The position numbers were made by a program, and so were the translations under genes. The notes under the pieces are model-generated. The model had not been told where the DNA came from and did not search any database. It saw only the letters and a program-made list of their open reading frames with translations. Below, in pieces: positions 969 through 13,816 of a stretch of DNA of 21,913 nucleotides. The stretch's first letter is position 1. Every line of letters begins with the position of its first letter. Origin of the DNA: a virus; IMG/VR virus record IMGVR_UViG_3300005529_000105, positions 1-21,913 of that record. One strand, written 5' to 3'.

Positions 969-1187
969 ATGAATAAACCTATTAGCTCATCATTCATGAA
1001 CAAGTACATCCTCGCCGACCTTGAGTTCGCCGAAGACGAAGCCAAACTCATCCACGCCCACAGGGAGCTAAACGATCGTCTGCAGAATCTATTCCTCTCG
1101 CAGTACTTTCTCAACACCTGCTCCAAGCTCTTCCACAAAGAACTCAACCCCATGCGCATCAACATACTTCAAGGCGAGCCACTATGA
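969..1187 (+). CDS. small hypothetical protein, first gene of the small-gene operon (72 aa)
   Basis: Unrecognised, predicted all-helical (KYILADLEFAEDEAKLIHAH and RELNDRLQNLFLSQYFLNT). The stretch FLNTCSKLFH at residues 47-56 matches the helix motif shared with several neighbours on both strands. No Shine-Dalgarno sequence precedes the ATG. It stands 5 bases after TATAAATA, so the mRNA may be leaderless; an internal ATG at 996 is an alternative but also has no ribosome site. The stop overlaps the next start (ATGA), which supports the frame. Function unknown. Confidence 0.6.
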   Translation: MNKPISSSFMNKYILADLEFAEDEAKLIHAHRELNDRLQNLFLSQYFLNTCSKLFHKELNPMRINILQGEPL

Positions 1188-1357
1188 GACGCTACCCCGT
1201 GATGAACCCCATATACTTCGACGAGGCCGACAAGGAGGAAGCACACAGCGAGGGGTGGCCGTACTACGACTGGCGCTCCACAGTGACCAACCGCTTCCGC
1301 CTCAAGAGACATGCCTGCTCCTACCGCAGCAGGGTGTCGTGGTACATCACCGTATGA
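1184..1357 (+). CDS. small hypothetical protein (57 aa)
   Basis: A 57-residue frame that overlaps the previous stop (ATGA) and whose own stop overlaps the next start (again ATGA). This coupling on both sides is the main support. The protein starts MRRYPVMNPIYF, is rich in Tyr, Trp and Arg, and has an acidic centre (DEADKEEAHSE) followed by a basic, probably beta-rich end (RFRLKRHACSYRSRVSWYITV, positions 37-57). No family is recognised. A weak AAGGCGAG lies upstream of the start. Confidence 0.6.
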   Translation: MRRYPVMNPIYFDEADKEEAHSEGWPYYDWRSTVTNRFRLKRHACSYRSRVSWYITV

Positions 1358-1635
1358 GCCACATCAAGCTTCGCAGCGCCCGCGCCGTTGGCATCGTCCA
1401 TGCTCCTTTCATGTTCAATGAAAGGTACTCAGCGAGCATGACGCTCGGAGACCTGGACGTGTACTCCGGCGTGATCTACCCGTTCTTTGAAACTTTCTAC
1501 AAGCTAACCGGTATGTGCTTTCCCATAGACTTCCATGTGGTCATCGACGGCGACGAAGGTGGTGAGGTTAGGTTCAACGTTGTGCTCGGCCACGACCGTA
1601 GACGGGAGAGGATAGACGATGGCGATCAACATTAG
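1354..1635 (+). CDS. small paralog with FFETFYKLTG helix (93 aa)
   Basis: The start is set at the ATG overlapping the upstream stop (ATGA) and not at an earlier in-frame GTG, because the extension would lie over the previous gene and has no ribosome site. Layout: an N-terminal beta-like part (residues 1-40, including SARAV near residue 8, similar to the GARAV of the protein at 2759), the helix FFETFYKLTG (44-53), then a beta hairpin, DFHVVIDGDEGG and EVRFNVVLG (59-79), and a charged tail. The same helix-hairpin order appears in the next gene and in those at 2144, 2759 and 3186. Function unknown. Confidence 0.75.
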   Translation: MSHIKLRSARAVGIVHAPFMFNERYSASMTLGDLDVYSGVIYPFFETFYKLTGMCFPIDFHVVIDGDEGGEVRFNVVLGHDRRRERIDDGDQH

Positions 1636-1912
1636 GTTCGCAGGTGCGCAGCTGTATCCACCCGGTGGATCAGGCAACTTCTATGTGAGCTGGTCGAAGT
1701 ACCGCGTCAACGAAGTCTGGGAGTGCCCGTCAAACTTCGACATGACGCCAGTTGTAAAGTTCTACAGGACCTTCTACAAGCTGACAGGCGCTTGTGACCT
1801 CGTCAACTACAGGTATCAGCAGGTGGCAGGTGAGACCACTATGAAGATCTATGTGGTTCTAGGTTACAACAGGGCCCCCGATCGAGAGCAAGAGGGTGAC
1901 GATGTTCGATAA
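1619..1912 (+). CDS. small paralog with a sheath-like N-terminus and FYRTFYKLTG helix (97 aa)
   Basis: The first 16 residues, MAINIRFAGAQLYPPG, closely match the first 16 of this phage's tail sheath, MAINVSFNGATIYKPG. A beta-like stretch (FYVSWSKYRV) follows, then the shared helix FYRTFYKLTG (48-57) and a hairpin ending MKIYVVLGYNR. GAGAGGA lies upstream of the ATG, and the gene overlaps its predecessor by 17 bases. It is clearly related to the protein at 1354 over the helix and hairpin (VVLGYN against VVLGHD). Whether the sheath-like start is functional (binding to sheath, decoy) or chance is open. No database family is recognised. Confidence 0.8.
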   Translation: MAINIRFAGAQLYPPGGSGNFYVSWSKYRVNEVWECPSNFDMTPVVKFYRTFYKLTGACDLVNYRYQQVAGETTMKIYVVLGYNRAPDREQEGDDVR

Positions 1913-2162
1913 ATGGTCGTGGGTCAAGGTAAAGAAGAACAATGCTGCTGTCAACGCGAGGTTGGACTGCAACAGCAGGATGAGTATAAGGGGGGGCTGC
2001 AGCTGGTGGCATACTCAAGACGGCACGAAGCTTGCGTGTGAGATGTCTAACAACCCGAGGTCACTCATTCAACCGTACGTGCTGGAATCTGTTGTTTGGG
2101 CTAAGAAACACGAGTATAAGTTCAAACGCATCAGGAGTAAAGATTGGCACAGAAAATATTAG
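1902..2162 (+). CDS. small basic hypothetical protein (86 aa)
   Basis: The ATG at 1902 is preferred over a GTG two codons earlier because AGAGGG is then spaced normally. The protein is basic and Trp-rich (KWSWVKVKKNN at the start, a Lys/Arg-rich end KKHEYKFKRIRSKDWHRKY), with three cysteines. Its central part (GGCSWWHTQDGTKLACEM, then YVLESVVWA) lines up loosely with the protein at 2502 (TGWVAYSGHDTQGNLCVRF, then YIKERLFGMA), so these two may form a second paralogous pair alternating with the helix-hairpin proteins. It overlaps both neighbours by 11 and 19 bases. Function unknown. Confidence 0.7.
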   Translation: MFDKWSWVKVKKNNAAVNARLDCNSRMSIRGGCSWWHTQDGTKLACEMSNNPRSLIQPYVLESVVWAKKHEYKFKRIRSKDWHRKY

Positions 2163-2515
2163 TCGGCGGGCAGCAGAACTTCACGGTGTTCAGACCGTAC
2201 CACGGACAGGCGTCTCAGCGCTTCTGGCGGTACAGGGAGAACATCGAGACGCAGGTGCAAGGCCTATACAGGGGCATGATCATCTACGACGCCGTGGAGA
2301 ACGTAGTAGACTTCTACAAGACCTTCTACAGGCTCATGGGCAAGGATCGCTGCTTCGTCATGGATGCTCAGATCAAGGACCTAACACCTCACTCTATGGC
2401 TAACGATCGCCACGACGAGAAGACCTACAAGATCTCTATTCAGTTCGCCCACCAGGTAAAACCAAACATGTACGACAACACAAGGGTGCTGATAGACGCG
2501 CATGAGAGCCAATAA
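2144..2515 (+). CDS. small paralog with FYKTFYRLMG helix (123 aa)
   Basis: Starts at TTG, supported by AGGAGT six bases upstream; no ATG near the N-terminus fits better. Residues 1-50 look beta-rich (KILVGGQQNFTVFRPY, GLYRGMIIYD). The shared helix FYKTFYRLMG is at 57-66, and a longer hairpin region follows, with strands CFVMDAQIKDL and TYKISIQFAHQV separated by an Asp/His/Asn-rich loop. It is the third strong member of the helix-hairpin family. It overlaps the upstream gene by 19 bases and the next by 14. Function unknown. Confidence 0.75.
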   Translation: MAQKILVGGQQNFTVFRPYHGQASQRFWRYRENIETQVQGLYRGMIIYDAVENVVDFYKTFYRLMGKDRCFVMDAQIKDLTPHSMANDRHDEKTYKISIQFAHQVKPNMYDNTRVLIDAHESQ

Positions 2516-2762
2516 GAGGTTCCACGACTCAGTAGGATACAACGGTGGTAACTACGGTCTGTGGAAGAAGTATCACAAAGCGTATCGCAAGTCTCACAAG
2601 GCAGGAGATACGGGCTGGGTTGCGTACTCTGGACACGACACGCAGGGAAACCTGTGTGTTAGGTTCGTCGGCGGGAAGTACAGCGACATGCGCTTCGGCT
2701 ACATAAAAGAGAGACTGTTCGGGATGGCGCTGGATGACATGGCGAACGAGGGAAAACTGTGA
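2502..2762 (+). CDS. small basic hypothetical protein (86 aa)
   Basis: The N-terminal third is basic and aromatic (LWKKYHKAYRKSHK), possibly nucleic-acid binding, followed by a beta-like centre (GWVAYSGHDTQGNLCVRFVGG) and a helix, FGYIKERLFG (65-74), that fits the cluster motif loosely. Resemblance to the protein at 1902 in the central part suggests a paralog pair. The ATG overlaps the preceding stop region by 14 bases; its stop overlaps the GTG of the next gene (GTGA). No family is recognised. Confidence 0.7.
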   Translation: MRANKRFHDSVGYNGGNYGLWKKYHKAYRKSHKAGDTGWVAYSGHDTQGNLCVRFVGGKYSDMRFGYIKERLFGMALDDMANEGKL

Positions 2763-3202
2763 GATCGCGCATCATCGAAGCAAGATCACCTAGTGGTGAC
2801 TATTATAGTTATAGTGATTCAACTATAACGCAGGGGGCCCCTTCTGAGTCTTCAAAGGTGATCACTGGTGCGAGAGCAGTTGTGAAGATCGGTGGACAGA
2901 CTATACCGTTCGCTAACGTGAGCTACACGTACCAAATTAACAACATCAACACGGCAGAGTTCAAGGGACAGTCGTACATGCGCACAGCGAAGGTTGTAGA
3001 CAACACCAAGCAGGTCTACGCTATGTACGTAGTGTTCAAGAAGCTGTTCGGCATGGACGCCAATATCTACTTCTCTGGATCGGCGAAGACCGTGTTCAAC
3101 GGTTGGTCGCTGCAGTCCTACAGGATCTCAGTTGGGAAGTGCAGCACTGAGAAGTTCGAGCGACTGAGGGTCGAGGGAGAGAAGGATGAGCTTGAAGATT
3201 GA
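2759..3202 (+). CDS. tail-tube-like N-terminal segment joined to the small-paralog helix (147 aa)
   Basis: Residues 36-58 (TGARAVVKIGGQTIPFA and on to VSYTYQ) match the N-terminal strands of all three tube-like proteins of this phage: TGANAKIKAGNLTLAYA, TGANAKIKLNGVTLAFC and SGARTTLKINNKIVGFAF, each followed by a [VL]-S-[YW] turn. After about residue 85 it becomes like the small paralogs: MYVVFKKLFG (89-98), then strands NIYFSGSAKTVF and SLQSYRISVG. The GTG start overlaps the previous stop and follows GAGGG. The first 33 residues are Ser/Tyr-rich and low-complexity; their DNA can form two adjacent hairpins. A GTG at 2858 would remove this extension but lacks a ribosome site. It may be a minimal tube-fold protein. 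Confidence 0.8.
   Translation: MRSRIIEARSPSGDYYSYSDSTITQGAPSESSKVITGARAVVKIGGQTIPFANVSYTYQINNINTAEFKGQSYMRTAKVVDNTKQVYAMYVVFKKLFGMDANIYFSGSAKTVFNGWSLQSYRISVGKCSTEKFERLRVEGEKDELED
2786..2829 (+). repeat. two adjacent hairpins in the 5' part of the tube-like small gene
   Basis: TCACC/GGTGA around TAGT (2786-2799) and GTTATAGT/ACTATAAC around GATTCA (2808-2829, 8 perfect base pairs). They lie 27 to 70 bases after the GTG start, inside the low-complexity N-terminal coding part. They might slow translation or serve as a binding site. Confidence 0.4.
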
Positions 3203-3434
3203 CCTCTCTGATCCTGAGACTGAGTGGATCGTAAGCAAGTTCCTGAGAACAGCGCACAAGCTTCTCAACCCAAAAGACTACACGCTCACTATAGAGTCTC
3301 GCATAGAGTACACCTATCAGCCCGTCTATGTTCTAGGTCAGTATGACCCAGTAGAGATGGAGCCGCATGTCAATATCATCCCAAGCGTGGTTACCTGGCG
3401 TCGAAAAAGTAGCGATACTCCTGAAGATTTGTAA
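3186..3434 (+). CDS. short member of the helix-hairpin family (82 aa)
   Basis: Last gene of the plus-strand small-gene operon. It lacks the N-terminal beta part of its relatives and enters the helix almost at once: WIVSKFLRTAHKLLN, with the motif FLRTAHKLLN at 19-28. A hairpin follows (YTLTIESRIEYTYQPVYVLGQYD), matching the VVLGYN/VVLGHD ends of the proteins at 1619 and 1354, and then a Pro/Glu-containing tail. GAGGGAGAGAAGG precedes the ATG, and the gene overlaps its neighbour by 17 bases. Function unknown. Confidence 0.7.
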   Translation: MSLKIDLSDPETEWIVSKFLRTAHKLLNPKDYTLTIESRIEYTYQPVYVLGQYDPVEMEPHVNIIPSVVTWRRKSSDTPEDL

Positions 3435-3498: not shown

Positions 3499-3711
3499 TT
3501 ACGTGGACTTAGGATTGCGATTCATCGGAAGAACAACTACTAGTCTTATATCTTCCAACTCTGCTAGCTCAACAGTAGAGAACTTCATAGAAGCAACTGA
3601 TGCTATGCTCTCGCTGTAGGCATATATAGCGCGTCGCTGCAAACGACGCTTCATGCCGTTGATGCCTTTGCGGCCTCTTATCCCCATGCGGCGCCATCTT
3701 CTAGGATCCAT
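3499..3711 (-). CDS. small arginine-rich hypothetical protein (70 aa)
   Basis: The start is placed at the ATG that overlaps the upstream stop by 11 bases, after GAAGAG; an upstream in-frame TTG would lie over the previous gene. The N-terminal third is strongly basic (RRWRRMGIRGRKG, MKRRLQRR), then a helix AIYAYSESIASVASMKFS and an Asp/Glu/Leu segment ending in RLVVVLP. A basic head and amphipathic helix would fit nucleic-acid or membrane contact, but nothing more can be said. Last gene of the minus-strand operon. Confidence 0.6.
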   Translation of the reverse strand: MDPRRWRRMGIRGRKGINGMKRRLQRRAIYAYSESIASVASMKFSTVELAELEDIRLVVVLPMNRNPKST

Positions 3712-3901
3712 CGCTGAACTCTTCAACTTTCTTCCACAGCTCGTCAACGCAGTGCTTGTGGATACTGTTGTCGATCTCTGGGTCGTCTAGTCCTATGATG
3801 TGGAAGCCCTGCACATCGCAGTACTTCTTCATAGACATCAGACCTAGGCGGTCGACAGTGATGAGAAACGCAGTGATTGCGTAGCCGTCAGCTAGAGTCA
3901 T
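3701..3901 (-). CDS. small paralog with FLITVDRLGL helix (66 aa)
   Basis: Begins MTLADGYAITAFLITVDRLG; the motif FLITVDRLGL (residues 12-21) matches FLITVSKLYR in the gene at 4790 and FCIATSKVGL in the one at 4194. A short Cys-containing stretch and an acidic C-terminal helix (VDELWKKVEEFSDG) follow. AAAGG precedes the ATG, which overlaps the upstream stop (ATGA). The N-terminal helix is hydrophobic enough to lie on or in a membrane. Function unknown. Confidence 0.7.
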   Translation of the reverse strand: MTLADGYAITAFLITVDRLGLMSMKKYCDVQGFHIIGLDDPEIDNSIHKHCVDELWKKVEEFSDGS

Positions 3902-4194
3902 ACTGGACCTTTATACCCGTTAAAATAAGCGTTTACATCTTTCACGACTCGCTGAGCCTTCGTGAGATTCTTTCGCTCGAACAGGTTCCATCCAGTGTTG
4001 ATGAACTCCATCTTCATCATCTCGTTCTCGAGCAGTCGCTTGAGGTGGTGCGTAGAATCTTTTGGAGTGTGGTAGTTGAGGCACTGACAACCTCTCACCC
4101 AGCATCGCATCCTGCGATATATCCACGGAGCTTCCATGAATGGGAAGAAGTTAGCCATGACCTGTATGCAGGTGATAAGGATCCACAGCTTCAT
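3898..4194 (-). CDS. small cysteine-containing hypothetical protein with hydrophobic N-terminus (98 aa)
   Basis: The N-terminus MKLWILITCIQVMANFFPF is hydrophobic, like a membrane segment or short signal; within it ILITCIQVMA also fits the local helix motif. A basic Cys cluster, CWVRGCQCLNYH (residues 31-42: C-x4-C-x-C-x3-H), could bind a metal, and a mixed-charge helical C-terminus follows. The ATG directly overlaps the previous stop (TGATG); the ribosome site is weak, so re-initiation is likely. Function unknown. Confidence 0.6.
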   Translation of the reverse strand: MKLWILITCIQVMANFFPFMEAPWIYRRMRCWVRGCQCLNYHTPKDSTHHLKRLLENEMMKMEFINTGWNLFERKNLTKAQRVVKDVNAYFNGYKGPV

Positions 4195-4421
4195 CAGAAC
4201 ACCACGTAGTACTTGTTCTTGTTCTCGATAAGCTTCATGCTTATGAAGTCGATGATCTGTCTTAGTTGCTGAGCAGGTTCGTTGGCGGATTTGAGTCCAA
4301 CTTTTGAAGTAGCGATACAGAAGTTATAGACTACGGCGTAGTCTCGTCTCAAGCGCTTGAGTCTCTTTATAGACATTCGCTTGAGTGGTTTAGGTTTTCT
4401 GCCACTCGTGGTTCCCACCAT
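4194..4421 (-). CDS. small paralog with FCIATSKVGL helix (75 aa)
   Basis: A very basic N-terminus (GRKPKPLKRMSIKRLKRLRR) precedes a helix containing FCIATSKVGL (residues 34-43), then a second amphipathic helix (AQQLRQIIDFISMKLIENK). GAGGTG lies three bases before the ATG, supporting this start over an internal ATG at codon 16, although the gene then overlaps its upstream neighbour by 32 bases. Same helix motif as the proteins at 3701, 4390 and 4790. Function unknown. Confidence 0.65.
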   Translation of the reverse strand: MVGTTSGRKPKPLKRMSIKRLKRLRRDYAVVYNFCIATSKVGLKSANEPAQQLRQIIDFISMKLIENKNKYYVVF

Positions 4422-4584
4422 TCACCTCTTGAATCATCTCTTGGACCACAAGCGTGTGATACGCCTGCCGCCATATATCCATCACGGCGTCTTGGTCCTT
4501 GATCAAGCCTATCTTAGTCGCCACGAACAGGAGCGCTACGGAATGGAGAATATCGTGAGAAGACCAGTGGATAGCCTCAGTCAT
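4390..4584 (-). CDS. small paralog with LLFVATKIGL helix (64 aa)
   Basis: Start chosen at MTEAIHWSSH because it aligns with the start MNKAVIRFSS of the next gene upstream and follows GGAGAG. Motif LLFVATKIGL at residues 18-27, then a helix DAVMDIWRQAYHTLVVQEMI. A TATAAT box (minus strand) ends six bases before the ATG, so transcription could begin on or near the start codon. Paralogous with the 36-residue neighbour. Function unknown. Confidence 0.65.
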   Translation of the reverse strand: MTEAIHWSSHDILHSVALLFVATKIGLIKDQDAVMDIWRQAYHTLVVQEMIQEVNGGNHEWQKT

Positions 4585-4590
4585 CTCTCC

Positions 4591-4596
4591 ATTATA
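4591..4596 (-). promoter_or_regulatory. -10-like TATAAT six bases before the start at 4584
   Basis: A perfect TATAAT on the minus strand with GGAGAG between it and the ATG. If used, the mRNA would be leaderless or almost so, though the GGAG could also act as a ribosome site in a longer operon transcript. No -35 match. Confidence 0.4.
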
Positions 4597-4618
4597 TTGC
4601 ACAAACTGACTTAAGGGG

Positions 4619-4729
4619 CTAGGGATAAGTCTGATAACTCAGTTTTCTCAGGATGAATAGAAGCTCGATCATGTAGAAGGTATCGATGGCTTGCTGGTTG
4701 CTCGAGAAGCGGATGACGGCTTTGTTCAT
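4619..4729 (-). CDS. 36-residue paralog with LLFILRKLSY helix
   Basis: Encodes a 36-residue peptide (MNKAVIRFSSNQQAIDTFYM to the C-terminus) with an excellent CAGGAGT site before the ATG. The N-terminus pairs with that of the protein at 4390 (MNKAVIRFSS against MTEAIHWSSH), and LLFILRKLSY (residues 24-33) is the shared helix; the protein ends three residues later, so the rest of the family domain is missing. An in-frame ATG pair at 4774/4771 would give a 51-residue form. The gene is flanked by two TAACT-N-AGTT(A) dyads. Function unknown. Confidence 0.6.
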   Translation of the reverse strand: MNKAVIRFSSNQQAIDTFYMIELLFILRKLSYQTYP

Positions 4730-4764
4730 AATGGACTCCTGTAGTGAAGTTACTAACTGAGTTA
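4635..4764. repeat. pair of TAACT-N-AGTTA dyads flanking the 36-residue gene
   Basis: TAACTGAGTTA at 4754-4764 is a perfect dyad around a central G. TAACTCAGTT at 4635-4644 is a near copy and the exact reverse complement of AACTGAGTTA. One lies in the promoter-proximal gap, the other near the 3' end of the gene, about 120 bases apart, as expected for a repressor acting by looping or for RNA pairing. Confidence 0.35.
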
Positions 4765-4789
4765 AAGTCATCATTACTATTTTATCAGC

Positions 4790-4975
4790 TTATTTGTAAA
4801 GAGCGGAGAGGGCTGTTGTATCTATACGAAAATCAGGATTAGCAGTAGCTGTAGCTAAACTGTCCACCATGTTCTTTCTATACAGCTTAGATACTGTTAT
4901 GAGAAACGTGATCGCGACCAGAAATGCTTCATCTTTGTTGAACAGGTCTTTTTCTACTTTCGCTGTGACGGCCAT
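4790..4975 (-). CDS. small paralog with FLITVSKLYR helix (61 aa)
   Basis: AAGGA precedes the ATG, and the gene overlaps its upstream neighbour by 22 bases. After a charged start (KVEKDLFNKDEA), a hydrophobic helix, FLVAITFLITVSKLYR, carries the motif at residues 24-33, followed by an Ala/Thr-rich helix. The motif is almost the same as that of the protein at 3701 (FLITVDRLGL) and resembles FLNTCSKLFH of the plus-strand protein at 969. Function unknown. Confidence 0.7.
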   Translation of the reverse strand: MAVTAKVEKDLFNKDEAFLVAITFLITVSKLYRKNMVDSLATATANPDFRIDTTALSALYK

Positions 4976-5199
4976 GAATATTCCTTCTCGGGCTCCTCAT
5001 CGTGAAAGATGGCGCTGTGCGTCAGTACCTTTAGTGCCATATCCCTCCGCTGCTGCTGCGTGGGAGGTTTAGGGAACAGGAACTCTGGGAGGCACATGGA
5101 GCGAAACGGGCATGCCGCGCATCTCTCACTCTTGAGACAGTTTCCATCTGTGGATACTATCTCCTGCAGGATAGTCTCATCTTGCTTGTTTAAACCCAA
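4954..5199 (-). CDS. small four-cysteine protein (81 aa)
   Basis: Starts at TTG after AGAGG, one base beyond the previous stop. Residues 9-16 (TILQEIVS) and a Cys cluster C21-x5-C27-x2-C30-P-x4-C36 are shared with the next gene upstream (ILQKIV, C17, C27-x2-C30-P, C46). Four cysteines in this arrangement could hold zinc or an iron-sulphur cluster. The C-terminal half contains a helix QQRRDMALKVLTH and an acidic end. Proteins of this size with C-x2-C-P are common in phages but mostly uncharacterised. The two genes form a tandem duplicate at the start of the operon. Confidence 0.7.
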   Translation of the reverse strand: MGLNKQDETILQEIVSTDGNCLKSERCAACPFRSMCLPEFLFPKPPTQQQRRDMALKVLTHSAIFHDEEPEKEYSWPSQRK

Positions 5200-5200
5200 T

Positions 5201-5455
5201 TTAACCTCTTTCTACTATATCTTCAATAGCTCGTTCAGCCAAGAGTCTACCAGCCGCCTCTTTATACACAGCGTTAGCTTCCTCGTTGTCCAAGCCTTCT
5301 ATGCTTAGCGCGTCGGCACAGCTAAGCGGGTTACCGTCTTCGCGATACTTTAGAGTAGACATCGGACACAGCTTACAGATGTCGGGTCTGCGGCTCGCAA
5401 ACTCGCAGCTGCCATTCTCTTCGACTATCTTCTGTAGAATATCGTTAGGTGTCAT
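5201..5455 (-). CDS. small four-cysteine protein, paralog (84 aa)
   Basis: First gene of the minus-strand operon. NDILQKIVEENGSC is followed by C27-x2-C30-P and a later C46-A-D-A-L, giving C-x9-C-x2-C-x15-C, a metal-site-like arrangement that differs in spacing from its downstream paralog. The second half is helical (EEANAVYKEAAGRLLAERA). The ATG lacks a clear Shine-Dalgarno sequence. It lies about 57 bases from the divergent structural operon, so the two promoters probably share this gap. Function unknown. Confidence 0.7.
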   Translation of the reverse strand: MTPNDILQKIVEENGSCEFASRRPDICKLCPMSTLKYREDGNPLSCADALSIEGLDNEEANAVYKEAAGRLLAERAIEDIVERG

Positions 5456-5511: not shown

Positions 5512-6324
5512 ATGGCGATGGACAAACCAGATAAGTTATATAACCCTTCTTCGACTTCGACTCCTCAGTTCATGCCCGCTCAGATTCCAGATCCCTCGCT
5601 CAGAGGCGCAAGCTGGGATCAGATCCTAGAGAACAGAGGTATCCGCTTCATCCATCGTCGTGCAGTGCCATGTCCCAACATGACAAGATTGGACGACAAC
5701 AACCATGTTCCTGACTGTCCCTTCTGCGACGACTCAGGGATCATCTACTACGATGAGCGTGAGATCTTCGGTGTGTTCCAGAGCAACTCGATCGAGAAGA
5801 CGTTCGAGCAGCAAGGTATCTGGGAGATAGGTTCTGCGGTCGTATCCATGCCCAGCGAGTACGCTGATGGAACTCCTGCAGACTTCAACACCTACGACGA
5901 ACTACTTATTCCTGACTTCACTGCCCGCATGTGGGAACTTAAAGAGTTCATACCAGATGCTCAGGGACAGCAGACATTCCGCTATCCCCTAGAGAAGGTT
6001 GACTATCTAGCCGTTACAACAAACGATCAGCTCACCAGGTTCCAAGAAGGTGTTGATTTTACGATCACTACCGACGGAGCGATCCAGTGGTTACCAGGAA
6101 AAGGACCTAGCTACGACCCAGTTAGAGGCGTCGGCGATGTTTTCACCATAGCGTACTATGCCTTTCCAGTGTATAAAGTCCTTCAGCCGCTCCGTGAGCT
6201 AAGAGTCTCTCAAGAGTGGGTGAACGGTCAGAAGGTAGCTAAGCGTCTACCGCAGCAGTTGCTAGTCAGACGCGACTTCCTCGTCGGAGCCGGCGAGAAG
6301 TTGGGCGATACGCCCAAAGCTTAA
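5512..6324 (+). CDS. head-neck (head-tail connector) structural protein with Cys motif (270 aa)
   Basis: Opens the structural module. Residues 48-80 hold a metal-site-like motif: C54, H65, C69-P-F-C72, followed by DDSGIIYYDE. The pattern CPxC-x-x-x-G with upstream Cys recurs in small neck/head-completion proteins of tailed phages. The rest looks beta-rich (FGVFQSNSIEKTF, IWEIGSAVVSMP, VDFTITTDGAIQWLP, DVFTIAYYAFPVYKVL), as expected for a virion connector. The start is ATG at 5512 or 5518; neither has a strong ribosome site, and the promoter lies very close. The role is inferred mainly from gene order and motif, not from a firm family match. Confidence 0.6.
   Translation: MAMDKPDKLYNPSSTSTPQFMPAQIPDPSLRGASWDQILENRGIRFIHRRAVPCPNMTRLDDNNHVPDCPFCDDSGIIYYDEREIFGVFQSNSIEKTFEQQGIWEIGSAVVSMPSEYADGTPADFNTYDELLIPDFTARMWELKEFIPDAQGQQTFRYPLEKVDYLAVTTNDQLTRFQEGVDFTITTDGAIQWLPGKGPSYDPVRGVGDVFTIAYYAFPVYKVLQPLRELRVSQEWVNGQKVAKRLPQQLLVRRDFLVGAGEKLGDTPKA
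6301..6317 (+). repeat. hairpin over the 3' end of the neck gene
   Basis: TTGGGCG, a 3-base loop ATA, and CGCCCAA: 7 perfect base pairs spanning the last codons. There is no following T-run, so at most it is a weak attenuator or 3' stabiliser before the next promoter. Confidence 0.3.
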
Positions 6325-6380: not shown

Positions 6381-7904
6381 ATGCCAAAGGCAGTTTCTAA
6401 GAGACAGTGGCGTTTTATGCAGGCTATCCTGCACGGTAAGCCTAAGGCCCATCCGCGCGGCACTCCGCCCAAATCCGTCGCTGCTAAGTATGTCGGCCCT
6501 GGCAAGGATGCTCCAGAGCAGAGTGGATCAAACTCTGGTGGTACCTGGGGTGAGGCTCATCACGCTAGAGCTAAAGAGAAAACCAAAGCCGAACGAACTG
6601 AGCGCAAGAAGAACAAAGACAAGCTGAAGAAAGCTTTTGAAGCATTCTATAAAGGTCAGGGCACAGGCGTGATCGTTCTAAACGACCGTGGCCAGATCCT
6701 CGTAGGCAAACAGCAGAAGCACAAAGAGTTTACGCTGCCTGGTGGACACGTAGATCCAGGTGAAACATACGAGCAGGGCGCACTGCGCGAGCTCAAAGAA
6801 GAAGCTGGCATCATAGGTTCAGGTCCCACCGAGATCGGCTCCTTCAGCATGAACGGCAACGACAACAAGATTTTTGTAGTAGACGCATGGCGCGGTAAAG
6901 TTCGCGACTGCGACGAAGTCTCCGGATGGAGCTTCATGGACGCCGACAGTATCCCATACGACAACATGAGACCCTGCGCACTTCGTGCGCTGCAGCTGTA
7001 TCTCGAAGGCAAACTTCGCAAGTCTAGATCCCTCAAGGATATGCTGGCGATGGAGACTCTCGAGAAGAATATCATCCGACAGAGGGGTGACGCTGTATTC
7101 GAAGTTACTCACGGTGACGCGCTACGTCTCGTGGGCAATGGTGCATTCCGCTGGCTGCGTGAGCAAGTCAAGGGGATGAAAGATGAAGATTTTAAAGATG
7201 TTCAGCTTGACAACTACACGTTGAGTCTGCGTCGCCACATGAGCGATGTCTACTCAGGTAGAGTCAGCGACGGGCACAAAGTGATATACCAGTTCACCAA
7301 CCAATCCTTGCCGCATCTTACTGCAGCACTGATGAGTGTTTTTGAATGGTATTTACCTGAAGATGAAGCAGAATTAGAACTTCTCGATGACGTGAAGTTG
7401 CCAGATGATGCTATTCATGGTGGATTGAACGAGTTGGTGAACGACTACAAGCGTCACAACATCGCAAACATCTACGATGAGATGGAGACCATACGAAGCG
7501 AGATCCGCAACGGTATGGCAGTCGACCTACAGCAGGTCGAATCAAAGATGATGAAACTCTTCGACCGCATGGAAGAGTTTGTACAAGATCTAGCGGGCAA
7601 GCACAATGAGCTTGCACGAGATGCTGGAGATGAGATCGATGAGATGGAGCGCAAGCTCCGCGAGATCCAGCAGAAGATTGAAGAACTAGGACAGAAACCA
7701 GATGTCGTTGAAGCGTACGCGCAGGAACGACCTAACCAGAACAAGATACTGGATGACTACTATTGCTATCTATCAAAACCTCAGATAGAGATATCGCCAG
7801 AAGGCAAGATCAAGATCAGCTTCGGCAAAGATTGGACGCCGCTTGAGAAAGAGAATCTTCTCAGCGATATGAAAGCGAAAGTTATCAAGAAAGCGGGTGG
7901 CTAA
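6381..7904 (+). CDS. Nudix hydrolase domain in a 507-aa virion-module protein
   Basis: Three parts. Residues 1-95 are basic and low in hydrophobics, opening VSKRQWRFMQAILHGK, similar to short N-termini of phage head proteins (SK.Q.RFM). Residues 95-215 form a Nudix domain with a complete box from G122 to I144 (G-x5-E-x7-R-E-L-x-E-E-x-G-I; E137, E140 and E141 are the metal ligands), so it should be active on a nucleoside-diphosphate-linked substrate. Residues 230-507 are unrecognised, with a long coiled coil (about 365-455, many Met/Glu/Lys heptads) and a basic end. It sits between neck genes and its stop overlaps the next start (TAATG). A catalytic enzyme fused into this position is unusual; substrate and virion location are unknown. 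Confidence 0.85.
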   Translation: MPKAVSKRQWRFMQAILHGKPKAHPRGTPPKSVAAKYVGPGKDAPEQSGSNSGGTWGEAHHARAKEKTKAERTERKKNKDKLKKAFEAFYKGQGTGVIVLNDRGQILVGKQQKHKEFTLPGGHVDPGETYEQGALRELKEEAGIIGSGPTEIGSFSMNGNDNKIFVVDAWRGKVRDCDEVSGWSFMDADSIPYDNMRPCALRALQLYLEGKLRKSRSLKDMLAMETLEKNIIRQRGDAVFEVTHGDALRLVGNGAFRWLREQVKGMKDEDFKDVQLDNYTLSLRRHMSDVYSGRVSDGHKVIYQFTNQSLPHLTAALMSVFEWYLPEDEAELELLDDVKLPDDAIHGGLNELVNDYKRHNIANIYDEMETIRSEIRNGMAVDLQQVESKMMKLFDRMEEFVQDLAGKHNELARDAGDEIDEMERKLREIQQKIEELGQKPDVVEAYAQERPNQNKILDDYYCYLSKPQIEISPEGKIKISFGKDWTPLEKENLLSDMKAKVIKKAGG

Positions 7905-9647: not shown

Positions 9648-11846
9648 ATGGCTATTAATGTAAGTTTTAACGGTGCAACAATCTACAAACCAGGCGCCTA
9701 CTCTAGAGAGATCATCGACCTAGGCGGCGGTTTTCCTCTTAGCCCAACGGGCCTCGTCGCTATCTTCGGTGAAGCTGACGCTGGCACTCCTGGAGCTAAC
9801 GAGATCAACATCGCCAACAACGTGTTCTCACCAGAGCAGATGCCACAGATCAGATCGAAGTATCGCAGCGGACCGCTTGTCGACGCATGCAACTTCCTCT
9901 TCTCACCTGGCGCTGACGGAGCGATTCCTTCAGGCGCTCAGGCTGTGTACATCTACAAGACCAACGCGGCTGTTCGGGCTTCGTTCTCTCCTGTTCTAAC
10001 GAACTGGGGAACGATCACCGCTCTCGAATGGGGTGTTGGCGGAAACAAGATCACGTACAAGAACACTCTTGTACCAGCAACTTCAGCAACTGTTACTCAC
10101 TCCGGAACTTTCGATCTAACGGTCGGCGGTGTTGGAACCAGTAACCTCGTTGTGAAGGTGAACGGCAGCGATGCATACACCTGGACCTCTCCAGGAGCAT
10201 CTGCGACGAACACTGTTGCTAAACTCCAGACCGAATTGAACAACTCTGCAGACTGGTCCCCTTCGCTTCCAGCAGGAATCAGCTTCACGGTCGGCGGAAT
10301 CGATACCGCTGCTACTCTGACGATCAGTCGGTCGTCCAGCGGTAACCCACAGCGTGAAGGTTACGGCAGAAACTTTGAAGTGGTCAGCGGTTCGCTGCTA
10401 ACCGACTTCCCGATCTCAACCGGTTTGAAGGTTTCTCAATCTGAAAACATGGCAATGATCGTGATCTCGAACAAGAGAGACCTCATCGATGAGTCGTCTA
10501 CAGTCGGTGGCAACATCGTTCTGATGGTCGGTCGCAACGGTGGTGTTGCTCCAAATATCACTATCGACGCAAACAACGTCACTCTGATCAACAACTCTGC
10601 TAACGAAGCTGTTCTTGCGAAAGCAGGATTCGGCGCGATCAGCGAGCTTGTTGCACAGATCAACACTATTCCAAACTGGTCAGCATCTCTAGGCAGCGCG
10701 CTGTACGGACAGCTACCTGTCTCTGCTCTCGACGAAGTTTCTAACCTCGGCGCAAGCGGAAGCGGCAGCACTCAGCCTGCACAGATCAAGAAGGACGCAT
10801 ACGAAGTTGAGCAGATGTTCTCTCTCAGCTCGCAAGTCTCCTTGACTCCTGGCAGCGCAGTTGCTGGTCTACCAGATGCTCAGTCAGAAGTGTTCTTGAG
10901 CGGCGGCGTTCTCGGCGGCACCTCTACTGCTGAGATCACTAACGCTCTTGCGAAGTTCGAGAAGATCAGGGTCAACTCTGTTGTTCCTCTGTTCTCGCGC
11001 GACTCTTCGGACGACATCGCAGACGGGCTCACTGATGCTTCGTCTTCGTACACGATCCTAGGTATCCACCAGGCTGTCAAGACTCACTTGTCGCTCATGT
11101 CGACCACTAAACGTCGCTCTGAACGTCAAGGTTACTTGTCGCTCAAGGATACGTACGTAAACTGCAAAACGCAGGCGCAGAACCTCGCTTACGAGCGTGT
11201 TCAGCTGATGATCCAAGACATCCGCCAGATCGACTCGCAGGGCAACCTCGAGTGGTTCTTGCCATGGGCTGGATCCTGCTTGCTAGCTGGTGCGCGTGGC
11301 GGCTCACCTGTCGGAACTCCTATGACGTTCAAATACTTGAACTGCAGCGGCATCCGTCAGACGTCTCAGCCTCTCTCGACTCCTGAGCAGAACATCGTTA
11401 TCGACTTCGATCCAGATACGATGTACGACGACGCGATCCAAAACGGGATCACGTTCCTAGAAGCTCCTCAGTCCGGCGGCTTCCGCATAGTTGTGGATAA
11501 CACGACCTACGGCAAAGATGACAACTGGGTTAAGAACCGCGGTAACGTTCAGTACGCAGCTGACGTTCTCGGCTTCGACTTCAGAACTCAACTTGAGAAC
11601 ATCTACGTCGGTGTGAAGAACACCGTCAAGGCTGCTGAAGTGAAATCTGTGTGTGAGTCGATCCTAGCGACCTACTTGGCACAAGGCATCACGGTCAGCA
11701 CGTCCGATGCTCCGAACGGCTTCAAACAGCTGATCGTAAGTATCAACGGCAACACGATCAACATCAGCGTCACTGTCAAGCTTGTTGAAGGCATCGACTT
11801 CATCCTAGCGGATATCACGCTACAAAGAGCTCAATCTACCGCCTAA
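9648..11846 (+). CDS. contractile tail sheath protein (732 aa)
   Basis: A long sheath subunit. The N-terminus VSFNGATIYKPGAYS with the segment SPTGLVAIFGEADAGTPG (residues 32-49) is typical of phage sheaths: the N-terminal arm links neighbouring subunits. The C-terminal 170 residues (from IVIDFDPDTMYDD through FDFRTQLENIYVGVKNTV to the final strand VKLVEGIDFILADITL) form the conserved inner domain that contacts the tube. The middle is enlarged and holds two similar modules, LQTELNNSADWSPSL (193-207) and LVAQINTIPNWSASL (334-348), probably surface domains. GGGAGG precedes the ATG, and an own promoter and terminator frame the gene. The first 16 residues recur at the start of the small protein at 1619. 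Confidence 0.92.
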   Translation: MAINVSFNGATIYKPGAYSREIIDLGGGFPLSPTGLVAIFGEADAGTPGANEINIANNVFSPEQMPQIRSKYRSGPLVDACNFLFSPGADGAIPSGAQAVYIYKTNAAVRASFSPVLTNWGTITALEWGVGGNKITYKNTLVPATSATVTHSGTFDLTVGGVGTSNLVVKVNGSDAYTWTSPGASATNTVAKLQTELNNSADWSPSLPAGISFTVGGIDTAATLTISRSSSGNPQREGYGRNFEVVSGSLLTDFPISTGLKVSQSENMAMIVISNKRDLIDESSTVGGNIVLMVGRNGGVAPNITIDANNVTLINNSANEAVLAKAGFGAISELVAQINTIPNWSASLGSALYGQLPVSALDEVSNLGASGSGSTQPAQIKKDAYEVEQMFSLSSQVSLTPGSAVAGLPDAQSEVFLSGGVLGGTSTAEITNALAKFEKIRVNSVVPLFSRDSSDDIADGLTDASSSYTILGIHQAVKTHLSLMSTTKRRSERQGYLSLKDTYVNCKTQAQNLAYERVQLMIQDIRQIDSQGNLEWFLPWAGSCLLAGARGGSPVGTPMTFKYLNCSGIRQTSQPLSTPEQNIVIDFDPDTMYDDAIQNGITFLEAPQSGGFRIVVDNTTYGKDDNWVKNRGNVQYAADVLGFDFRTQLENIYVGVKNTVKAAEVKSVCESILATYLAQGITVSTSDAPNGFKQLIVSINGNTINISVTVKLVEGIDFILADITLQRAQSTA

Positions 11847-12010: not shown

Positions 12011-12556
12011 ATGGCTGGAATGAAACCGTCATTTGTAACAGGCGCAAACGCAAAGATCAAGGCAGGCAACTTGACTCTGGCGTATGCTCAAGACGTCAGC
12101 TATGCTGCAACAGTCGATATCGTCCCCGTGGAAACCATGGGTCGGTACGAAGTCGTGTCCAACGAGCCAGTTGGATACCGTGTTGAGGGTAACCTCAACG
12201 TTGTTAGGTACACGAAAGTGGCCCAACAGAACGGGATGAACGGCGCTGCAGCTGGCGGTAACGGCGTCGGCAAGTGGAACTTCTCGACTGGTGGCGTTGC
12301 TTCACAGCATGTCAACCCAGGTGATCTCTTGGTCTCTCAAACGTGGGATCTTGAGGTGTTCCAAAAATACGACGACAACGGGCAACCTGCTTCGCAGCTT
12401 GTCTCGAAGGTCAAGGACTGCAGATTCCGCAGCAAGGGCGGCGCTATCAACAAGCGCGGTATCCTAGTTGAGGCTTTCGCTTTCGTGGGGATTCTCGCTG
12501 AAGACGACAGCTTCACTGCTTCGAACTCTGGAGACCAAGATCTCTCGTCCTCGTAA
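12011..12556 (+). CDS. tail tube protein, paralog 1 (181 aa)
   Basis: An inner-tube subunit of the contractile tail. The N-terminal strands TGANAKIKAGNLTLAYA, then VSYAATVD, a loop GRYEVVSNEPVGYRVEG, NVVRYTK, and a C-terminal hairpin (TWDLEVFQKYDD, KVKDCRFRSKGG, EAFAFVGILAEDD) follow the phage tube fold. It lies right after the sheath and before a second close paralog. AAAGGAG with a 6-base spacer to the ATG predicts strong translation, and the terminator plus leader hairpin upstream suit a major virion protein. Probably the main tube protein of the three candidates. Confidence 0.85.
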   Translation: MAGMKPSFVTGANAKIKAGNLTLAYAQDVSYAATVDIVPVETMGRYEVVSNEPVGYRVEGNLNVVRYTKVAQQNGMNGAAAGGNGVGKWNFSTGGVASQHVNPGDLLVSQTWDLEVFQKYDDNGQPASQLVSKVKDCRFRSKGGAINKRGILVEAFAFVGILAEDDSFTASNSGDQDLSSS

Positions 12557-12578
12557 TCAATAGTAAGGTTGGTGCCAG

Positions 12579-13184
12579 ATGGCTGGTTTAGCTCCCTTCT
12601 TCATTACAGGCGCGAATGCAAAGATAAAACTCAATGGAGTCACTCTTGCCTTCTGCACCAACCTATCCTATAATGTCACAGTAACTCATGCCACACCTAC
12701 GGTGCTAGGCATGTACGAAGCATCATCGATCGAACCTCTCGCATATAAAGTAACAGGAACTTTCTCTGTTGTCAGGTACGCAAACAACGTACAGGGACAG
12801 CTGCAGAATCAGGGTTTCAAGACTCCAGACGGAGTTAACCCAGATGGTAACGGAGTAGGTAACTTCTCTCCTAACCAAGGCAGTTCCTTAGGCGCTGAGA
12901 TCCTGAAGAGCGGTGCATTCGGCAACGACGGAAGAGCTCAAGAATCTTTCGATCCAAGTAAGCTACAGAACGGAACGTTCTTTGACATAGAAGTTTATCA
13001 GAAGATGCCCAACGACAGTGAGCCAAGAGGCGTAGCACGCATACGCAGCTGCCGACTCTCGGCTATGACCGGCGACATCGCCAAGAAGACACCACTCGTT
13101 GAGCGATTTCAGTTTCAGGCGATCTACTTCGATGGAGACAGCTTCTTAGCTGGCTTCTCTGGAGTTGGTCAGCAGTTTGAGTAA
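12579..13184 (+). CDS. tail tube-like protein, paralog 2 (201 aa)
   Basis: Same start pattern as its neighbour (MAGLAPFFITGANAKIKLNG against MAGMKPSFVTGANAKIKAGN), a matching YEASSIEPLAYKVTG loop and SVVRYAN strand, then a longer Gly/Asn-rich insertion (residues 68-125) before the C-terminal strands DIEVYQKMPND, ARIRSCRLSAMTG and FQFQAIYFDGDSF. The insertion and weaker ribosome site (AAGGTTGG) suggest a minor component, for example at the tube end or baseplate junction, or an alternative tube subunit. Confidence 0.8.
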   Translation: MAGLAPFFITGANAKIKLNGVTLAFCTNLSYNVTVTHATPTVLGMYEASSIEPLAYKVTGTFSVVRYANNVQGQLQNQGFKTPDGVNPDGNGVGNFSPNQGSSLGAEILKSGAFGNDGRAQESFDPSKLQNGTFFDIEVYQKMPNDSEPRGVARIRSCRLSAMTGDIAKKTPLVERFQFQAIYFDGDSFLAGFSGVGQQFE

Positions 13185-13192
13185 GGAAGTAG

Positions 13193-13816
13193 ATGTCCCA
13201 GAAGGGTTTCACCAACGATAAAGGTGGCATAGTTCAAGGTATCGTAGACAACGCGCTTACTGGCGTCGCTGGCATACTTTCAACTAAACCTACCGCGAAG
13301 TACGCATCTGGTGCACGCACTACCCTCAAGATCAACAACAAGATCGTGGGATTCGCGTTCAGCGTGTCCTGGCGCATCAACACAGAGGTGATGGAGAATC
13401 GCACCATCGACGACTATCTACCAAACGAGTTGATCCCCACCAGGATCAGCGTTGACGGCACCATCGGGATGTTCCACATCCCAGGACAGGGTGCTTCCGC
13501 GGCACTCATCCAAGCGGATGTTCTAGGCTTCCTGTTCCACAAGTACATCACTATCGAAGTAAGAGATTCAGCAACTGATCAGCTGCTCTTCTTCACTGAC
13601 AAAGCCTTTGTTACTAGTCGACTAGAGACATTACAGAGTGAACAACTTGGTAGCGCTCAGCTCTCTTTCAAAGCTATCGGCTGGAAAGACGAGCGAGATC
13701 CTCAGCTACCTCAAGGTGCCGACTCCATCGACGGTGGTGCAGCTGACCAATCCGCTGGTTCTCGCTTGATCCAAGCAGGTCAAGACGCCTTCAATAAGGT
13801 AAAGAACATATTCTAA
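13193..13816 (+). CDS. divergent tube-like protein, paralog 3 (207 aa)
   Basis: After a 35-residue N-terminal extension, SGARTTLKINNKIVGFAF and VSWRINTEV align with the tube N-termini, and SVDGTIGMFHIPG corresponds to the Y.V.G.. strand of the others. Helix SAALIQADVLGFLFHKY, strand ITIEVRDSATDQLLFFT and the end QLSFKAIGWKDE complete a tube-like fold; the tail (about 170-207) is Gly/Ser/Gln-rich. Ribosome site AAGGAAG, 8 bases after the previous stop. Probably a minor tube, tube-initiator or tail-end component. It is the member most like the small protein at 2759. Confidence 0.7.
   Translation: MSQKGFTNDKGGIVQGIVDNALTGVAGILSTKPTAKYASGARTTLKINNKIVGFAFSVSWRINTEVMENRTIDDYLPNELIPTRISVDGTIGMFHIPGQGASAALIQADVLGFLFHKYITIEVRDSATDQLLFFTDKAFVTSRLETLQSEQLGSAQLSFKAIGWKDERDPQLPQGADSIDGGAADQSAGSRLIQAGQDAFNKVKNIF

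Follow-up and report, generated by a model that had tools for sequence, protein, structure and literature searches.

Phage micro-proteins combining a common helix with pieces of virion proteins, in arrays beside the virion structural genes

The virus record IMGVR_UViG_3300005529_000105 from IMG/VR, 21.9 kb in length and analysed here in full (the window), contains at positions 969–3434 an operon of nine small genes, which we name by their first coordinates. This operon appears to be part of a large, fast-changing and modular set of micro-proteins. In related large tailed phages, arrays of proteins of 40–100 amino acids adjoin the first virion gene and have in common the helix hhLLxxLxKLG[IV]xSA (about 120 loci and 11 large genomes, with some 20–40 helix ORFs per large genome). 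In a recognisable subset of the micro-proteins, the helix is joined by a short stretch of capsid, sheath, tube, baseplate or fibre protein. We propose, with a probability of roughly 0.4, that the micro-proteins are decoys that occupy host sensors of virion proteins. The evidence comprises sequence, conservation and predicted structure, and it is from these that we infer the mechanism. An earlier reading of the operon from its sequence (the original prediction) had described a shared helix with diversifying flanks and missed the main point, namely that the variable parts include pieces of virion proteins.

Pieces of virion proteins

Comparison of gene 1619 with the tail sheath gene of the window reveals related N-termini, the micro-protein starting with MAINIRFAGAQLYPPG and the sheath with MAINVSFNGATIYKPG. 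A profile of this sheath arm identifies eight micro-proteins in eight phages, gene 1619 included, and the match begins at Met1 in all of them. Seven score 25–38 bits and one 12.6 bits; the best unrelated sequences reach 14–16 bits. The match of gene 1619 is confined to residues 1–17/19 of sheath proteins of 728–731 residues, and no further sheath domains are present. A tube-hairpin profile identifies five micro-proteins at 18–36 bits, with gene 2759 at 18.3 bits. Compared with tube families, gene 2759 gives expectation values (E) of 4.5e-5 and 3.8e-4, covering only positions 8–39 of 189 and 32–63 of 203 in the profiles, so that the whole domain is not matched. Gene 3186 weakly resembles a second tube segment (QPVYVLGQYDPVEMEP, 3318–3365), at 6–8 bits only. 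Searching the related loci by tblastn with the nine window genes gave nothing beyond the sheath and tube segments.

A wider search compared 447 micro-proteins, their helices masked, with 100 conserved families of large proteins, and at E ≤ 0.01 yielded 27 matches against 0.6 in shuffled sequences. Fragments of gene 5512, family F081 (apparently antisense), family F090 (a chance helix in a real gene) and one protein related to family F080 were left out. The remaining matches fall on three segments of the capsid protein (phrog_752; 37–73, 133–165 and 231–267), the sheath, tube families F069 and F077, the baseplate wedge (phrog_6), the uncharacterised tail-module protein F001 and the fibre-like F004; G008:77915 has one weak match to the family of gene 5512. 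Virion pieces are also present in three array proteins below the helix cut-off: L011:1838 (capsid 46–86, E 6e-9), L093:7703 (E 3e-8) and L035:893, a 38-residue protein in which capsid segment 48–74 is joined to LLSKLGVR.

Among 15,635 small open reading frames (ORFs), 21 matches to virion pieces were obtained at E ≤ 0.1 and none in shuffled sequences. The helix accompanies 14 of these 21 matches, compared with 675 of the 15,635 small ORFs (4.3%). The 18 different ORFs behind the 21 matches include two ends of true tube genes, three array members with divergent or terminal helices, and one unexplained ORF, L027:9726. A weak segment resembling the tube hairpin (TGANTEV), with no helix, was seen in the minus-strand ORFs L027:9726–10010 and L019:12291–12596.

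Recent copying of a piece from the sheath gene of the same phage is rejected, as synonymous sites differ. Nor was a preference for an origin in the phage's own proteins seen: own and foreign matches score similarly, and the best match of a piece is often the protein of another phage.

The helix family

The related loci were gathered with the window sheath and gene 5512 as queries and lie partly on the same contigs. Upstream of gene 5512, many relatives have runs of tiny genes on both strands, from which a helix profile of 15 residues was grown. At the cut-off of at least 12 bits it matches 296 small ORFs, against 16 reversed and 11 shuffled sequences. Positions 3, 4, 6, 7 and 10 are mostly Leu, Phe or Ile and position 9 is Lys or Arg; Gly is frequent at position 11, and positions 12–13 are mostly Ile, Val or Leu. 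About 38 loci have one or more helix genes upstream of gene 5512. Four large genomes contain 43, 31, 21 and 28 helix matches, compared with 0–3 in reversed sequences; in the large genomes the main helix cluster lies beside gene 5512 and other members are scattered, some of the matches being spurious antisense frames. No match of at least 12 bits was found in 160 of the 169.6 kb of Myxococcus phage Mx1. We do not claim the helix in larger phage proteins, because matches of at least 12 bits there number 3 against 2 in reversed sequences, the best being to the gene 5512 family at 13.8 bits.

The window itself has four members of this family on the minus strand (3701, 4194, 4390 and 4619), with helix scores above the control level. 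The six plus-strand proteins to which the original prediction assigned a helix score 1.0–6.7 bits, and the family profile alone misses them. They are probably a divergent subset; what links them to the family is their location, the predicted topology, the motif shared within the operon and two virion pieces, and not the helix profile.

Family F080, of 150–170 residues (QKEAV...SGLxSNWLRKDxRxNGG...NPGSRxGxGD), is present in several copies per phage (L006:45–530, L006:1795–2286, L109:638–6309), and the F080-like protein G003:57282 also has a helix match. The helix-less small array genes L006:3549, L088:6263 and L011:2594 have LHD[HF]GGG and NPGVG in common, and two of them weakly match F071. A conserved, secreted-looking protein of about 160 residues also lies inside arrays (L011:3738–4229, L008:3379–3864).

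Modularity, selection and turnover

Individual phages have typical variants of the helix, such as KTGNxA in L029, KLGVID in G010 and RLGLCS in L112. Helix similarity is 15.2 within a phage and 12.2 between phages (permutation standard deviation 0.28), and the difference of 2.97 compares with a largest permuted value of 0.96. For micro-proteins carrying sheath, tube and F001 pieces, the helix scores 17–23 against other micro-proteins of the same phage, but 6–13 against the same piece in other phages, where the background is 9–12. We conclude that there are two modules, the helix variant mostly tracking the phage and the piece tracking the virion protein. Identical helix residues use the same codon at a frequency of 0.283, against 0.273 by chance; the likeness of the helices is therefore not due to recent gene conversion or DNA copying. 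This pattern suggests a helix matched either to a partner varying by phage or to self-association; alternatively, it may reflect older common ancestry within a lineage.

In pairs of near relatives, nonsynonymous divergence (pN) in array genes is mostly below synonymous divergence (pS), as for L091/L111 (0.19 and 0.60). The array genes thus appear to be mostly under purifying selection, and ORFs with pN above pS are probably spurious. The repertoire turns over rapidly, 354 of the 447 micro-proteins having no relative outside the helix.

The operon and its surroundings

The features of the window are collected in Table 1. The six 10-residue motifs named in the original prediction are all present in open, overlapping frames. 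Kinship within the operon was scored by Smith–Waterman alignment against shuffled sequences, and each named motif was scored against the three strong ones. The proposal that six genes share a motif holds for 1354, 1619 and 2144 (z 5.4–11.4, the lowest value being that of the pair 1619/2144), and 3186 fits; 2759 is marginal, and membership of 969 is unsupported because its motif gives p = 0.13. A resemblance had also been proposed between the two basic genes, 1896 (with an ATG at 1902) and 2502; it is no better than that of shuffled sequences (p = 0.58). The strong divergence of the N-terminal parts is borne out, although in two proteins it is not random, 1619 having the sheath-like start and 2759 the tail-tube hairpin. 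The pattern of one conserved and one diversifying part is found on both strands and in dozens of related phages.

Table 1. Coordinates of the operon, the minus-strand array and the structural genes in the window
Coordinates	Strand	Feature	Support
969..1187	+	First small gene of operon; proposed motif FLNTCSKLFH unsupported	p = 0.13
1184..1357	+	Small operon gene, no motif found	Open overlapping frame; GC content at third codon positions 0.86
1354..1635	+	Micro-protein, helix FFETFYKLTG (1483–1512), then hairpin	Kin to 1619 (z 11.4) and 2144 (z 5.9)
1619..1912	+	Micro-protein: sheath-like N-terminal arm (1619–1675), helix FYRTFYKLTG (1760–1789), hairpin	Arm 27.8 bits at Met1
1896..2162	+	Small basic gene (ATG at 1902), no motif	Unlike 2502
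2144..2515	+	Micro-protein (TTG start), helix FYKTFYRLMG (2312–2341)	Kin to 1354 and 1619
2502..2762	+	Small basic gene, no motif	
2759..3202	+	Micro-protein (GTG start): tail-tube-like hairpin (about 2852–2950), helix MYVVFKKLFG (3023–3052)	Helix p 0.026
3186..3434	+	Micro-protein, helix FLRTAHKLLN (3240–3269)	Helix p 0.001
3701..3901	-	Micro-protein, family helix TAFLITVDRLGLMSM	11.7 bits, shuffle p 0.002
4194..4421	-	Micro-protein, family helix YNFCIATSKVGLKSA	15.6 bits, 0/1000 shuffles
4390..4602	-	Micro-protein, family helix VALLFVATKIGLIKD	11.4 bits, p 0.002
4619..4774	-	Micro-protein, family helix IELLFILRKLSYQTY	11.0 bits, p 0.002
4790..4975	-	Small gene, similar-looking helix by eye (ITFLITVSKLYRKNM), no profile support	-0.5 bits, p 0.67
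5512..6324	+	Conserved virion structural gene	phrog_1004; borders arrays in relatives
9648..11846	+	Tail sheath, protein type whose arm gene 1619 carries	phrog_279, E 1.4e-35
12011..13816	+	Three tube-like paralogs (12011, 12579, 13193), protein type whose hairpin gene 2759 carries	

A repeated element (CCTATTAGG ... GGTACCAGGTTAC) is found twice upstream of gene 969, at 670–706 and 921–955, and is possibly a control site of the operon. A T4-like late promoter before gene 969, TATAAATA, was considered and dropped, as it occurs in a single copy and is not enriched in relatives.

The AlphaFold model of 1619, built with its window paralogs, comprises a strand at residues 29–37, a helix at 43–56 and strands at 60–68 and 74–82, in agreement with the helix followed by a beta hairpin in the original prediction. 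Its confidence (predicted local distance difference test, pLDDT) is 70–78 in the core and only 59 overall, and residues 1–27 are predicted to be disordered. A 12-member group from relatives is predicted as strand-helix-strand-strand-helix with a pLDDT of 81. The folds are not unrelated: in both models the helix would sit in a small beta-alpha-beta-beta unit.

The window phage is contractile-tailed. Its sheath is 32% identical to that of Mx1, the best annotated isolate, and the capsid protein of one relative has about 32% identity to SPO1-type phages. The label of tube for 12011, 12579 and 13193 denotes position and mutual similarity only, with neither a PHROG tube match nor a solved relative. 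Metagenome-assembled genomes (MAGs) of Bacteroidota (Cytophagales and Saprospiraceae) contain two contigs of the phage clade, a hint of a Bacteroidota host, although their placement could also be a binning error. One phage contig of 146,658 bases, L213 (LNEN01000305.1), is filed within a Cytophagales MAG in the genome collection. Within the structural operon, a protein of 507 residues (6381–7904) has a Nudix domain (phrog_1198), and the structural region of Mx1 has a protein of 1479 residues annotated as a NUDIX hydrolase. Beside gene 5512, on the minus strand, lies a pair of small cysteine-rich genes (4954–5199 and 5201–5455), whose cysteine pattern recurs at the same place in L003, L006, L008, L011, L086, L088 and L109.

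Discussion

The virion-protein piece would act as bait: by resembling a segment of a capsid, sheath, tube, baseplate or fibre protein, it would occupy whatever recognises the protein imitated. The most likely targets would be host defence sensors triggered by virion proteins; a decoy would fill the binding site of the sensor without triggering it, while the helix would join the micro-proteins to each other or attach them to a single common partner. Bacteria are known to have sensors of virion proteins. Patchy presence, rapid turnover and the phage-typical common part suggest an accessory function in an arms race rather than an essential step of assembly. We prefer decoys because of the imitation itself, this accessory pattern and the existence of such sensors. 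The phage protein DSAD1 (PMC10973363) offers a precedent and is a further reason. A more elaborate version, which we put forward as a tentative and rather doubtful extension, is a modular decoy library of dozens of micro-proteins, all with a docking helix specific to the phage and many with interchangeable pieces of its own virion proteins, which would intercept host sensors or the virion parts of competitors and deliver them to the common partner.

Several observations weigh against decoys. Most micro-proteins have no detectable virion piece, and the helix accompanying the capsid 231–267 piece is conserved between phages as well. Residues conserved in virion proteins are kept in the pieces, as a role in assembly would also need, the free N-terminus of the sheath arm suits an assembly interface at least as well, and the arrays adjoin late genes.

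Two roles in assembly are retained, given that the sheath arm still has a free N-terminus and that the pieces preserve conserved residues. A piece may bind the natural partner of the segment that it imitates (a neighbouring sheath subunit in the case of the sheath arm) and so cap or poison assembly in co-infecting competitor relatives, or delay the phage's own. Retention of the arm at Met1 as a disordered free arm, the derivation of pieces from capsid, tube, sheath and baseplate proteins, and best matches that often lie in another phage are all consistent with such interference. However, own and foreign matches are nearly equal in score, and self-poisoning would be expected, since the residues kept in the pieces are conserved throughout the clade; we regard this as somewhat unlikely. 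The micro-proteins might instead assist assembly as adaptors, chaperones or minor components of the virion, with a piece that binds a virion protein and a helix that docks to a phage-specific hub. The position of the arrays next to the structural operon, the phage-specific helix and the conserved residues would accord with this, but an essential aid to assembly should be conserved, and each piece occurs in some phages only (8 have the sheath arm, compared with about 38 loci that have helix genes), which makes assistance improbable in our view.

It is also conceivable that the pieces are evolutionary debris, chance fusions of virion-gene fragments with a short, spreading helix gene that have no function of their own. 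Fast turnover and the shortness of many pieces are what debris might look like. Against this, the array genes are under apparent purifying selection, the same segments recur across phages at diverged sequence, with the sheath arm always at Met1, and the helix has been kept while its synonymous codons were randomised. We consider debris very unlikely.

Should the micro-proteins be decoys, their pieces would reveal the parts of virion proteins that are worth mimicking and hence, for phages known only from sequence, the features that host defences or assembly partners recognise. Every piece, of about 15–50 residues, would be a testable bait. This would also be, to our knowledge, the first example of virion-protein fragments maintained by a phage as a whole set of individual genes.

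Comparison with known systems

The original prediction knew of no described phage system of this form, and within the libraries used we found no family, fold or report that matches. The nine window genes have no convincing match in Pfam or PHROGs, 85 sampled family members have none, and gene 1619 has no direct relative in annotated phages or IMG/VR. Fold searches with both models gave no reliable match (VIA-align Z ≤ 4.0, Foldseek E ≥ 0.04). Searches of the open PubMed Central (PMC) literature, which leaves out subscription papers and preprints, found no such array. We know of no precedent for the array, the helix module or the range of proteins imitated, although the principle of virion mimicry has one.

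Capsid-interfering proteins of phage satellites (Sid and Psu of P4, Cpm of phage-inducible chromosomal islands (PICI)) are small and act on virion assembly, a likeness that would count only if a role in assembly were right; as far as we know, they are neither built from pieces of virion proteins nor arranged in arrays. The sheath and tube of the same phages resemble the micro-proteins over 19 N-terminal residues and a hairpin of about 25–30 residues, respectively, whereas the rest of each micro-protein of 45–150 residues is unrelated and carries the helix.

The closest parallel in principle is DSAD1, a phage protein reported to imitate the tail tube protein, to occupy the binding pocket of the sensor DSR2 and thereby to trap it (PMC10973363). 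DSAD1 does not appear in the Foldseek and VIA lists, which excludes no kinship, its sequence not having been compared. Like the micro-proteins, it is a small phage protein imitating a virion protein. DSAD1 is, however, a single protein of other phages, with no shared helix and no array, whereas in the micro-proteins a common helix occurs with sequence segments from at least five virion proteins.

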